Translations under genes and position numbers: made by a program | In this document: piece after piece, positions 32,551 to 53,748 of the stretch | Numbering within the stretch: position 1 is the stretch's first letter | Layout: each line of letters opens with the position of its first letter | The notes under the pieces: model-generated | The model's input: the letters and a program-made list of their open reading frames with translations, nothing else | Database searches by the model: none | What the model was told of the DNA's origin: nothing | Assembly: GCF_027947535.2 (NCBI RefSeq) | Contig: NZ_JAAGKO020000011.1 | Coordinates: 62,001-126,000 of the forward strand | Length of the DNA: 64,000 nt | Reading direction: 5' to 3' | From: Streptantibioticus silvisoli | GTDB lineage: Bacteria; Actinomycetota; Actinomycetes; Streptomycetales; Streptomycetaceae

Positions 32551-32878
32551 GCCGGGGCCGTGGCGAACGGTCCGCGGGAGCCGCCCCGGCACCCCGGCAC
32601 GAGGCGTGCGCCGGGCGCGCGCCGGGCGGACACGGGGTGGGCACGGAGCGTGCACCGGGCGGGCACGGAGCGGGCACGGGACCATGGCGGTACGCGGGGG
32701 CGGTGGGGCGGCGCCGCGGCGCGAGGCGGCGCGGGGGCGGTGGGGCGGACGGTGCGCACGGGGGCGCGGGTTGGAGTGGGGGCGGGCGGTACGCACGAGG
32801 CGGGCGCGGGAGTTGGGGCGCGCGCGGTGCGGGCCGGTCTCGCGGAGTGGGTGGACGGTGGGCGCGGGCCCCACGCGG

Positions 32879-33021
32879 TCGGGTGAACGGTACGTGCGAG
32901 CCGGCGCGGTCGGGTGAGCGGTGCGCGCGAGCCAGCGCGATCGGGTGAGCGGTGCGCGCGAGCCGACGCGATCGGGTGAGCGGTGCGCGCGAGCCGACGC
33001 GGTCGGGTGAGCGGTGCGCGC
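32879..33021. repeat. 31-base tandem repeat, about 4.6 copies
   Basis: Unit begins TCGGGTGAGCGGTGCGCGCG. Copies start at 32879, 32910, 32941, 32972 and 33003 (last one partial, running into the next array). The first copy is the most diverged. Confidence 0.9.
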
Positions 33022-33120
33022 GGGTGCACGGGTGCACGGGTGCACGGGTGCACGGGTGCACGGGTGCACGGGTGCACGGGTGCACGGGTGCACGGGTGCA
33101 CGGGTGCACGGGTGCACGGG
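33022..33120. repeat. 8-base microsatellite GGGTGCAC, 12.4 copies
   Basis: An uninterrupted run of GGGTGCAC with no substitutions. Each unit contains the self-complementary hexamer GTGCAC. The period is not a multiple of three, so it is not maintained as a coding repeat. Confidence 0.95.
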
Positions 33121-33201
33121 TTCCGCAGGGATCGGCGGACGGTGCGTGCGGCGCAGGGTGCACAGGAAGCGGCGCGGCGGTCGGGGCCGGCGCTGGTCGG
33201 G

Positions 33202-33316
33202 GGCCGGCGTTACGCGGGGCCGGCGTTACGCGGGGCCGGCGTTACGCGGGGCCGGCGTTACGTAGAGCCGGCATACGCGGGGCCGGCATGCGCGGGGCCG
33301 GCGTTACGCGGGGTCC
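33202..33316. repeat. 16-base tandem repeat, about seven copies
   Basis: Unit GGCCGGCGTTACGCGG. The first copies are perfect; the middle ones carry changes (CGTAGA, CATACG, CATGCG) and one-base length differences. Each unit contains the palindrome GCCGGC. Confidence 0.85.
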
Positions 33317-33370
33317 CGCGGGGAGCGGGCCGGTGGTGCGTCGGGGTCCCGCGGGGAGCGGCGTCGGGGC

Positions 33371-48577: not shown

Positions 48578-50833
48578 TCACGCCCCTTCGCCAAGTCGCG
48601 CGCCCCCGGTGATCACGTCCAGCACCTGGTCCAGCACCCGCCCGGTGTCCGGTGGCAGCGACGGCTCGTAGGTCCAGGCGTGCCCGACCCACGGATCGGC
48701 GAGGTGGTCGTCCGGCAGCGGGGACAGCCGCAGCAGCGACCGCCACATCGGATCGAGCACCGGGCCGAACCGCCGGGCGTCCGCCGGGTCCGCGACCACC
48801 ATCAGGTGCACCCCGGCGGCCGGTCCCTCGTCGGCCAGGTACCGCAGCAGGCTGACCGCCCGGTCGTCGACGTCGTCCGGGATGCCGCCGAGCACCAGCA
48901 GCCGCTCCCCCGGTTCGCCCGCGCCGGCCGCCGCCGGGTCCAGTCCCGCGCGCACCGCCATCGCGACCAGGTCGGCGTGCCGGACCATCTCCTCCAGCGC
49001 CGCCGGGACGTCCGCCCGTTGCCGCAGCGCCCCGGTGCGCGCCAGCGGTGCGAACGCCGTCGCCAGCGTGCCGCCGGGGTCCGCCAGATGCACCGTGAGC
49101 CCGCCGGCCGGGTGGGACGCCAGCAGCCGCACCGCGAGCGCGGCCGCTGTGGCACCCGCCCGGTACAGCGCCGTCCCGGCGTCCTGCGGGGTCAGGCCGG
49201 CGTAACCGGTACCGGTGTCGATCCACACCCCGCGCTCCAGCGGCAGCCGGGCCAGCAGCGGCAGCCGCAGTTCCGGCACCTCCGGCAGGTGTACGTCGCC
49301 CAGCCGCACCGCCATCGGTACCGCCGGCGGCGACCGGTACCCGTGCCACACCGGGCTCTCCCAGGCGGCGAAGGCCGGCGGCAGCGCCGGCTCGACCACC
49401 TCGGACTCGGCCGTCAGCTGCCGCAGGTCGTGGTCCAGCACGGCACGCGCCCGGTCGGCGAGTTCGTCACGCCGCGCCCGGGCCCGTTCCCGCGCCGTGT
49501 CGGCGGCCGGCCCGAGACGGGTCGCCGGGTCGGCCAGCACCGCGTCCAGTTCCCGGTCCAGCCGCGCCTGCGCGAAGTCCACCGCCGACCGGTACGCCGC
49601 GATCCGCCGCGCCAGGTCCTCCCGCATCGCCGCGACCTGGCCGAACAGCCGCTCCTCCAGCGTCCACCCCGGCGCGTCCCCCGCCACCGGCCCGCCCTGC
49701 TCCGGCCGGTCCGCCGCGCCGGCCCGCTGAGCGGGCACCACGGCGCCGGACGGCGCCCTGTGCGGCGCGGCGGCGGACGGTGGGGCCGTCTTGGGATGCG
49801 TGGCGAAGGGGGGCGACGGCGCCGCCTTGGGGGCTGCCGGGGCTGCCGGGGTCGCCCGGGGGGTTGCCGGGGCCCGTCGAGGCGCCGGGGCCGCCGGAGG
49901 CGTTGCGCGGGCCGTCGGGGCCGTCAGCAGGCGTTCGGCCTGGCGGGCGGGGTCCGGGACACCGTGGTCGGCCAGCATGTGTGCCAACCCGTCCGCGTAG
50001 CCCTGCCCGACCGCCCGCAGCCGCCAGGCACCGTTGCGCCGGTAGACCTCCAGGACGGCGACCGCGGTTTCCGGACCGAGCCCGGTCAGCGCGAACGCTC
50101 CCACCCGCGAACCGTCCGCACCGGTCACCACCGCGTGCGGCGCCGGCGCGACCGCGCCGAACCGCCCCGCCGACGCCCCGCCCGGCAGCGCGAGCAGGAC
50201 CGTCAGCGACTGCGGGGGCGCCGGACGGGCGTCCGGCGAGGGGGCGGCGGGGGCGCGGTTCGCGGAGGAGTGGTTCGCGGACGCGCGGCCGGAGGGGTTT
50301 TCCGCCGGAGGGGTACCGGTGCCGTTTTCGTCCGCCCGGGTACCGCTGCCGGTGCTGTTGCCGAGCCCTGCGGTGTACGTGACGATTTCCGGCGCCGCAG
50401 TACGGGTGCCGTCCTCGGACACCGCGGTACACGTCACGTTTTCCCGTAGCGCGGTATACGTGCCGTCTTCGGAAGCTGCGGTGTACGTGCCGATTTCCGA
50501 TGCCGCGGTACGGGTGCCGTCTTCCAGCGCCGACGTACACGTCATGTTTTCCGGCGCAGCGGTACACGTACCGTTTTCCGGCGTCCCGGTTCGCGCCACC
50601 GCTTCCAGCGCGGCCGGGGCGATGACGACGCGGTGTTCGCCCGGCGTGAGCTGTTCGACGGTCACACCGGGCAGGGGTGGTCCGCCGGACGGGGTGAGCC
50701 GGGGCCGGATGCCCGGGCCGGCGATGATGACGGCCACCACGGCCGGGACCGCGCAGGCGATCCGTATCTCGACCGGGGTGTGCGGCAACGGAACGTTCTG
50801 GCCTCGCAGCAGTCCGGGCGCCATGCTCGCCAC
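48578..50833 (-). CDS. TerD-domain fusion protein with nonapeptide repeats and an ATPase-like C-terminus
   Basis: A 751-residue protein. GTG 50833 has GGGAG six bases upstream. Residues 1-84 resemble the start of a TerD domain (GLLRGQNVPLPHT). Residues 85-156 are eight nonapeptide repeats (type SEDGTRTAA). Residues about 205-303 are the TerD C-terminal lobe (VLEVYRRNGAWRLRAVGQGYADGLAHML). A Pro/Ala linker follows to about 383, then a charged helical stretch (about 390-470) and a 275-residue domain with an FtsK-like or VWA-like feel (GGLTVHLADPGG, LLVLGGIPDDVDDRAVSLLRYLADEG, VHLMVVADPADARRFG) but no intact Walker A. TerD proteins bind calcium and act in stress responses. It lies 45 bases downstream of terD. 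Confidence 0.85.
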   Translation of the reverse strand: MASMAPGLLRGQNVPLPHTPVEIRIACAVPAVVAVIIAGPGIRPRLTPSGGPPLPGVTVEQLTPGEHRVVIAPAALEAVARTGTPENGTCTAAPENMTCTSALEDGTRTAASEIGTYTAASEDGTYTALRENVTCTAVSEDGTRTAAPEIVTYTAGLGNSTGSGTRADENGTGTPPAENPSGRASANHSSANRAPAAPSPDARPAPPQSLTVLLALPGGASAGRFGAVAPAPHAVVTGADGSRVGAFALTGLGPETAVAVLEVYRRNGAWRLRAVGQGYADGLAHMLADHGVPDPARQAERLLTAPTARATPPAAPAPRRAPATPRATPAAPAAPKAAPSPPFATHPKTAPPSAAAPHRAPSGAVVPAQRAGAADRPEQGGPVAGDAPGWTLEERLFGQVAAMREDLARRIAAYRSAVDFAQARLDRELDAVLADPATRLGPAADTARERARARRDELADRARAVLDHDLRQLTAESEVVEPALPPAFAAWESPVWHGYRSPPAVPMAVRLGDVHLPEVPELRLPLLARLPLERGVWIDTGTGYAGLTPQDAGTALYRAGATAAALAVRLLASHPAGGLTVHLADPGGTLATAFAPLARTGALRQRADVPAALEEMVRHADLVAMAVRAGLDPAAAGAGEPGERLLVLGGIPDDVDDRAVSLLRYLADEGPAAGVHLMVVADPADARRFGPVLDPMWRSLLRLSPLPDDHLADPWVGHAWTYEPSLPPDTGRVLDQVLDVITGGARLGEGA
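50366..50581. repeat. 27-base in-frame minisatellite, eight copies
   Basis: Eight 27-base units encode nonapeptides of the form (P/S/L/R)E(N/D/I)xT(C/R/Y)TAx inside the TerD fusion protein. Alternating units differ more than neighbours two apart, as in PENGTCTAA, LEDGTRTAA, SEIGTYTAA. The reading frame is kept throughout. Confidence 0.9.
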
Positions 50834-50878: not shown

Positions 50879-51457
50879 CTACAGGTGCGAACCGATGGCG
50901 GGCATCAGGTCCTTGAACGTGCGGCCGGCCGCCGGCGCCCCGATCGCGGTCATCGCCCAGCCGTCGCCGGACCGGTGGACCTTCGCCATGATCTGCGCGG
51001 TGTAGGGGCCGCCGCCGGTGAGGGTGTGGCGGGCCAGTTCCTGCCCGTTGGTCTCGTCGACCAGGCGGCAGAACGCGTTCTCCACCTCGGCGAACGTCTG
51101 GCCGGTGAAGGAGTTGACGGTGAAGACGATCTGGTCGACGTGGACCGGGACGCGTTGCAGGTCGACCAGGATCGACTCGTCGTCGCCGCCCTGTCCCACC
51201 CCGCCGACCAGGTTGTCCCCGGTGTGCCGGACCGAGCCGTCGTTGCTGATCAGGTGCTGGAAGAAGACCACGTCGACCAGGTCACCGGCGGCGAACAGCA
51301 CGGCGGAGGCGTCCAGGTCGATCTCCCGGGTACGGCGGCCGAACAGCCCGCGGCGCGGCGCCGCCTGCCAGCCCAGCCCCATCCGTACGGCGGACAGCGT
51401 GCCGCCCCCGGACTTCGTCAGACTGACCTGCTGCCCCTTGGCCAAGTTCACCGTCAC
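50879..51457 (-). CDS. terD: TerD-family protein
   Basis: A 192-residue TerD. Calcium-binding loops are readable in DLDASAVLFAAGDLVDVVFFQHLISNDGSVRHTGDN and GGDDESILVDLQRVP, then VNSFTGQTFAEVENAFCRLVD and a terminal AIGAPAAGRTFKDLMP. GTG 51457 has GGGAGGGA seven bases upstream. The family is cytosolic, calcium-loaded and linked to tellurite, oxidative and phage stress in ter clusters. It starts the terD / TerD-fusion / terC set, all on the minus strand. Confidence 0.95.
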   Translation of the reverse strand: MTVNLAKGQQVSLTKSGGGTLSAVRMGLGWQAAPRRGLFGRRTREIDLDASAVLFAAGDLVDVVFFQHLISNDGSVRHTGDNLVGGVGQGGDDESILVDLQRVPVHVDQIVFTVNSFTGQTFAEVENAFCRLVDETNGQELARHTLTGGGPYTAQIMAKVHRSGDGWAMTAIGAPAAGRTFKDLMPAIGSHL

Positions 51458-51651: not shown

Positions 51652-53748
51652 TCAGGCGATGCCGGCCTCCTTCATCTGCCGCAACTCCTTCTTGAGTTCA
51701 CCCAGCTCGTCCCGCAGCCGGGCCGCCACCTCGAACTGCAGCTCGGCGGCGGCGGTGTGCATCTGGTCGGTCAACTCCTGGATGAGGTCGACCAGTTCGG
51801 CCGCGGGCAGGCTCTTGGCCGTGCTGCGGCCGCCGGACTTGGCCGACAGTCCCGGCACCGGCGCCTTGCCGCGCGACCGCTGGCGCCCGGAGCCGAGCAG
51901 TTCCTCGGTGTCCGCGTCCTCGCGGGCGAACGAGTCGAGGATGCCGGCGATCTTCTTGCGCAGCGGCTGCGGGTCGATGCCGTGCTCGGTGTTGTAGGCG
52001 ATCTGCTTGTCGCGGCGCCGGTTCGTCTCGTCGATGGCACGTTCCATACCCGCGGTGATCCGGTCGGCGTACATGTGCACCTCGCCGGAGACGTTGCGCG
52101 CCGCGCGGCCGATGGTCTGGATCAGCGAGGTGCCGGAGCGCAGGAAACCCTCCTTGTCGGCGTCGAGGATCGCCACGAGCGAGACCTCCGGCAGGTCGAG
52201 GCCCTCACGCAGCAGGTTGATGCCGACCAGGACGTCGTACTCGCCGGCCCGCAGCTCGCGCAGCAGCTCGATCCGGCGCAGCGTGTCGATGTCGCTGTGC
52301 AGGTAGCGCACCTGGATGCCCAGCTCCAGCATGTAGTCGGTGAGGTCCTCCGACATCTTCTTGGTGAGCGTGGTGACCAGCACGCGTTCGTTGCGCTCGG
52401 CGCGCACCCGGATCTCGTGCACCAGGTCGTCGATCTGGCCCTCGGTGGGCTTGACGATGACCTGCGGGTCGATCAGGCCGGTGGGGCGGATGACCTGCTC
52501 GACGTAGGTGTCGGAGCGGGACAGCTCGTAGGGGCCGGGGGTGGCCGACAGGTAGACGGTCTGGTCGACCCGGCCGAGGAACTCCTCCCACTTCAGCGGC
52601 CGGTTGTCCAGCGCGGAGGGCAACCGGAAGCCGTGGTCGATCAGGGTGCGCTTGCGGGAGGCGTCGCCCTCGTACATCGCGCCGATCTGCGGGACGGTCT
52701 GGTGGGACTCGTCGATGACCAGGAGAAAGTCCTCCGGGAAGTAGTCGAGCAGCGTGTTGGGCGCGGTGCCCGCCTCGCGGTCGTCGATGTGGCGGGAGTA
52801 GTTCTCGATGCCGGCGCAGGAGCCGATCTGCCGCATCATCTCGATGTCGTACGTGGTGCGCATCCGCAGCCGCTGGGCCTCCAGCAGCTTGCCCTGCTTC
52901 TCCAGGGTGGCGAGGGTGGTCTCCAGCTCCTTCTCGATGCCGGCGATCGCGCGTTCCATCCGCTCGGGACCGGCGACGTAGTGCGTGGCGGGGAAGACGT
53001 ACAGCTCGGTGTCGTCGGTGATGACCTCGCCGGTGAGCGGGTGCAGGGTCGACAGCGCCTCGACCTCGTCGCCGAACATCTCGATGCGGACGGCGAGTTC
53101 CTCGTAGACCGGGAAGATCTCGATGGTGTCGCCGCGCACCCGGAAGGTGCCGCGGGTGAACGCCACGTCGTTGCGCGCGTACTGGATGTCGACGAAGCGG
53201 CGCAGCAGCTGGTCGCGGTCGATCTCGTCGCCGACGCGCAGCCGGACCATGCGGTCCACGTACTCCTGCGGGGTGCCCAGGCCGTAGATGCAGGAGACGG
53301 AGGCGACGACGATGACGTCGCGGCGGGTCAGCAGCGAGTTGGTGGCCGAGTGCCGCAGGCGTTCGACCTCCTCGTTGATGGAGGAGTCCTTCTCGATGTA
53401 GGTGTCCGTCTGCGGGACGTACGCCTCGGGCTGGAAGTAGTCGTAGTAGGAGACGAAGTACTCGACGGCGTTGTTGGGCAGCAGTTCGCGGAACTCGTTG
53501 GCCAGCTGGGCCGCGAGCGTCTTGTTCGGGGCGATGACCAGGGTGGGGCGCTGGAGCTCCTCCACCATCCAGGCGGTGGTGGCGGACTTGCCGGTGCCGG
53601 TGGCGCCGAGCAGCACGACGTCCTTCTCGCCGGCCCGGACGCGCCGGGCCAGCTCGGCGATGGCCGTGGGCTGGTCGCCGCTGGGCTGGTAGGCGCTGAC
53701 GACCTCGAAAGGGGCCACCGTGCGCTCGATGTCTGTTACGGGCCGCAT
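51652..53748 (-). CDS. uvrB: Excinuclease ABC subunit B
   Basis: A 698-residue helicase-like damage verifier that takes DNA from UvrA and recruits UvrC. Walker [17 protein letters not shown], the beta-hairpin [20 protein letters not shown], motif [21 protein letters not shown] in motif VI, and a C-terminal UVR coiled coil ([28 protein letters not shown]). ATG 53748 is six bases after TACGGT, without a Shine-Dalgarno. All repair residues are present. Confidence 0.97.

Follow-up and report, generated by a model that had tools for sequence, protein, structure and literature searches.

The window analysed here, 64,000 nucleotides of the Streptantibioticus silvisoli genome, encodes a TerD fusion protein that is probably a conserved actinobacterial pseudo-ATPase adaptor, one surface loop of which would have been filled by a lineage-specific, near-neutral minisatellite. 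The family is widespread among actinobacteria and poorly characterised; without the array its architecture is not special, and the lineage-specific repeat insert is the sole unusual feature of a member of an ordinary family. The more useful result is not the array but the pseudo-FtsK character of the C-terminal domain: judged by its predicted structure, a common actinobacterial Ter-locus protein carries, in a C-terminal domain that has no Pfam model, a dead FtsK/EccC-type ATPase, which allows a scaffold role in TerD-TerC systems to be put forward as a testable hypothesis.

The reading frame occupies 48578-50833 on the minus strand and codes for 751 residues from a GTG at 50833 or for 748 residues from an ATG at 50824, homologues beginning at the equivalent of the latter. 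The fusion protein consists, in this order, of a first TerD lobe, an insert, a second TerD lobe, a Pro/Ala linker, a helical hairpin and an alpha/beta domain (Table 1). This layout bears out two observations of the first-pass annotation, namely a TerD domain split by a nonapeptide array, the second lobe being recognised by Pfam and the first by homologue alignment and AlphaFold, and the succession of a linker, a helical stretch and a C-terminal domain devoid of a P-loop, recovered by structure prediction and alignment. The insert is predicted to be disordered, with a pLDDT of ~30 versus ~90 for the TerD lobes and ~35 for the linker (AlphaFold on 36 sequences).

Table 1. Features of the TerD fusion gene and its neighbours (positions in the window).
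Feature	Position	Strand	Basis or remark
TerD-helical hairpin-pseudo-FtsK protein (predicted), 748 aa	48578..50824	-	start by homologues; GTG at 50833 possible
TerD domain, first lobe	50588..50824	-	alignment with 80 homologues; AlphaFold pLDDT ~90
126-residue insert in TerD loop	50210..50587	-	loop of 7 residues in 80/80 homologues; predicted disordered
Eight clear 27-bp/nonapeptide units, 108-bp higher-order repeat	50372..50587	-	units 9-11 downstream decayed
TerD domain, second lobe (Pfam PF02342)	49949..50209	-	Pfam E 3.5e-11; AlphaFold
Pro/Ala linker, disordered	49680..49905	-	42-178 residues among relatives; AlphaFold
Helical hairpin (two long helices)	49385..49660	-	structure prediction
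FtsK/EccC-type alpha/beta domain (predicted), without Walker A, Walker B aspartate replaced	48584..49312	-	structure and alignment
Canonical TerD gene, 54-bp gap upstream of fusion gene	50879..51457	-	Pfam E 4.4e-40; synteny
TerC/Alx family membrane protein, directly downstream of fusion gene	47391 to ~48485	-	GTG start probable
uvrB, conserved upstream neighbour	51652..53748	-	synteny

The Pfam TerD model (PF02342) matches the second lobe only (residues 221-289, E 3.5e-11, 43.3 bits against a cut-off of 25.3), and Foldseek matches the TerD fold to 3ibz with a probability of 1.00. The fusion protein thus shares its fold with canonical TerD (2kxt, 3ibz and the product of the neighbouring gene) but differs from it by the loop insert, by the fused C-terminus and by its acidic residues. 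The canonical TerD encoded next door carries the motifs DLDAS, NDGS, HTGDN and DDE, which bind calcium in canonical TerD, while an alignment with this neighbour shows that they are absent from the fusion protein and from the aligned homologues shown. Since these motifs are missing, calcium binding by the TerD domain of the fusion protein appears doubtful, and the label of calcium-binding domain that it had first been given is not supported for this TerD branch. The whole S. silvisoli genome holds 11 TerD matches, and immediately before the first position of the window is an open frame of 575 residues that encodes two TerD domains (G000:C13:60606-61877).

Modelled alone, the C-terminal domain reached a pTM of 0.88, and Foldseek matched this model to EssC with an E value of 6e-7 and to EccC/FtsK with a probability of 1.0. 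Structural alignment (VIA-align) to EccC ATPase 2 gave a Z score of 16.6 over 232 residues at 3.6 A, with Z scores of 14.8 for TcpA and 14.6 for FtsK, and the top of the structural list is filled by EccC/EssC ATPases 2 and 3, TcpA and FtsK. At the sequence level, the Pfam FtsK profile had no match in 53 members, the alignment of the C-terminal domain found no match among PDB profiles, and Pfam, NCBIfam and PADLOC identified nothing in the C-terminus and only TerD elsewhere in the fusion protein. Because sequence profiles give no match, the homology of the domain to FtsK/EccC rests on structure. The first-pass annotation had been reminded of FtsK- or VWA-type folds; the first resemblance agrees with the structural list, while VWA appears neither among the listed structural matches nor in the Pfam results, an absence that does not by itself exclude it. 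According to the model, the C-terminal domain is probably a family-wide pseudo-ATPase of FtsK/EccC fold rather than a VWA domain.

The lack of Walker A noticed at first in this protein extends to its relatives, as GK[ST] was found in the corresponding region of none of 81 proteins. At the Walker B position, 65 of the 81 proteins have a strand with the sequence LLIVNDFP and that of S. silvisoli has one with LLVLGGIP, the aspartate being replaced, this assignment relying on strand order and on a reading of the alignment, not on residue-level structural superposition. As Walker A is missing in 81/81 proteins, the ATP site would have been lost at the level of the family and not in this genome, and with both Walker motifs missing the domain appears to be a fold relative of FtsK-HerA/EccC rather than an active member. 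The family does keep many invariant residues in the C-terminal domain despite this loss (motifs DPWVGHAW, DDR and RYLADEGP), as could be expected if nucleotide binding or another enzymatic activity had been retained via a non-canonical site. We consider this quite improbable in view of the Walker A and Walker B results, and the invariant motifs could equally be interface or structural residues.

A pseudo-ATPase of this fold has counterparts. EccC/EssC ATPases 2/3 and the EccC5 DUF (4n1a, 4lya, 8rin) combine the same fold with a degenerate ATP site, as here, and for the EccC5 DUF, an FtsK-type domain that has degenerated and fails to bind ATP, a scaffold or oligomer role has been put forward, with hexamerisation possibly retained (PMC11154593). 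FtsK domains predicted to be inactive were also reported in a survey of conflict systems (PMC7159879). Identity to EccC/EssC amounts to 11-14%, and unlike these proteins the fusion protein is not encoded in an ESX locus, bears TerD and a helical hairpin at its N-terminus and has no membrane segments identified. The same alpha/beta core is found in the FtsK motor domain (2ius, 6t8b) and in TcpA (6o1x), with Z scores of 14-15, but the lack of Walker A means that the fusion protein cannot work as they do, as a DNA motor driven by ATP.

A family scan using one genome per species yielded at least 594 pattern matches and at least 575 confirmed relatives. The best 80 of these at least 575 relatives, nearly all from Streptomyces, were extracted as full proteins; they are 43-57% identical to the S. 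silvisoli protein (54-66% for the C-terminal set), and all 80 keep both the TerD domain and the C-terminal domain. The homologue from Streptantibioticus parmotrematis (locus L001, uvrB-terD-X-terC), with 57% identity in the best aligned segment, has the same domain order, synteny and Walker motif loss. The same C-terminal domain, at 32-33% identity and with an HHalign probability above 99%, occurs in more distant relatives encoded on plasmids of Mycolicibacterium alvei and Prescottella equi, where these relatives adjoin a second TerD protein and lie near StiP and phosphoribosyltransferase genes. In a protein of a Mycolicibacterium plasmid (L081 5710-6993), a Pro-rich linker connects two TerD domains, of which only the second carries the canonical acidic motifs. 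A homologue of the C-terminal part alone was detected at NZ_CP065251.1 7513-8364, in a 23-kb Streptomyces clavuligerus record and at a place with no annotated gene, with 51% identity over query residues 462-741.

The position of the fusion gene beside terC and terD on the same strand, pointed out from the start, is seen here and conserved in 79 of 80 loci, and the order uvrB-terD-fusion gene-terC is found on one strand in 79-80 of the 80 inspected homologous loci. The neighbours at this locus are UvrB, TerD and TerC and not StiP, PRTase and HAD genes, which distinguishes it from the Ter biosynthetic operon (StiP/phosphoribosyltransferase/TerD), although the relatives from Mycobacteriales occupy loci of the latter type. 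In Bacillus, relatives of TerC export manganese and supply metal to exported enzymes (PMC12096827), and by analogy with them a metal-homeostasis setting would be reasonable for the uvrB-terD-fusion-terC locus.

With regard to its role, the fusion protein is most likely a scaffold that works without nucleotide and links TerD in the cytosol to TerC in the membrane, by a mechanism that we infer. The scaffold function suggested in the first-pass annotation thus remains plausible, and the operon link itself is observed. An ancient loss of nucleotide binding may have left the FtsK/EccC-type domain as a binding or oligomerisation platform, perhaps ring-forming as in FtsK/EccC. The TerD end would engage the cytosolic Ter machinery, that is canonical TerD, and the helical hairpin and pseudo-ATPase end would make an assembly or partner contact near the TerC metal transporter.

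The insert carries a tandem array (50368-50590) that can be described as 8.2 copies of period 27 or as 2 copies, at 81%, of period 108. Its in-register identity is 0.64 at lag 27 and 0.76 at lag 108, against a maximum of 0.43 in 2,000 shuffles at any lag from 15 to 60, and a search with the unit core gave 6 matches, every one inside the array, versus 0 expected. Units 2-4 resemble units 6-8, which produces the higher-order repeat, and the last units, 9-11, degrade into a tail of Pro, Ala and Ser. The eight-copy nonapeptide array initially described between the TerD lobes is therefore present as eight clear units followed by decayed copies.

At the position of the insert, the S. silvisoli protein has 134 residues whereas all 80 aligned homologues, including the S. 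parmotrematis protein and others from uvrB-terD-X-terC loci, have a 7-residue loop and no array, and the array is also absent in seven proteins from further Streptomycetaceae genera. The insert is restricted to this genome among those examined, which does not support the repeat as a feature of the Ter system. Relatives devoid of both the repeat and the TerD lobes had been named as one outcome that would speak against the first reading, and what was found is divided, the repeat being absent and the TerD lobes kept. Likewise, the statement that nothing described could be matched to this protein holds for the insert but not for the protein, which is a member of a common family.

The array could nevertheless be a functional module, as the first-pass annotation implies: a tunable tether that binds a metal, ligand or partner and sets the activity of TerD through its copy number. 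It is in frame, contains no stops and maintains a recurrent core, [SP]E[ND]GT[CRY]T, and comparison between units gives a pS of 0.47 and a pN of 0.27 (pN/pS ~0.57). However, pN/pS in the antisense frame is comparable (0.67), so the ratio is weak evidence and does not settle selection on the peptide, the synonymous excess leaving room for mild selection. Given also the absence of the array from the homologues, its predicted disorder and the decay of units 9-11, a functional module is unlikely, and it is very unlikely that this is a first repeat-tuned Ter protein, with a copy-number-variable tether modulating a TerD/pseudo-ATPase scaffold.

Selection could also act on the DNA, for example if the array were a regulatory or iteron-like repeat whose palindromic core, rich in GTAC/CACGTG, lies in a coding loop by chance. 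Palindromic cores (GGTACGTGTACC and GGCACGTACACC) recur among the units, the G+C content of the array is 0.65 versus 0.78 in the rest of the gene, and another contig has, outside obvious coding frames, an array that resembles it faintly (G000:C55:85064-85383). But the palindrome is a point of divergence between the unit cores, the genome contains no further true copy of the array and no promoter-like site was found nearby, and we regard this explanation as quite unlikely. Compared with plasmids, the array DNA gave just short matches at chance level. The contig with the faintly similar array carries two adjacent 28- and 43-bp minisatellites (L091 1554-1841) whose GTAC and GCGGTTTTC motifs are reminiscent of the TerD array.

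The array is best read as a 27-bp minisatellite that expanded in frame, and in this lineage only, within a length-tolerant surface loop of TerD, where it would form a floppy, Thr-rich tether. It is probably close to neutral and would give no new job to the protein, and it offers a clear case of a minisatellite growing in frame within a conserved domain, both lobes of which are retained. Minisatellites are frequent in the S. silvisoli genome, with 65/Mb at a TRF score of at least 150; the density in seven other Streptomycetaceae genera is 8-58/Mb, so that S. silvisoli lies at or just above the top of this range, and as two of these genera reach 50-58/Mb it stands at the high end without being unique. 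A 14-fold excess of tandem repeats over the 80 homologous loci suggested an unusually rich genome, a reading that is withdrawn, that comparison being confounded by locus, and the excess shrank to ~1.1-8-fold versus sampled regions of the seven other genera. Elsewhere in the window, at 32596-33361, different minisatellites with periods of 8, 16, 31, 33, 37 and 44 bp lie side by side within 770 bp.
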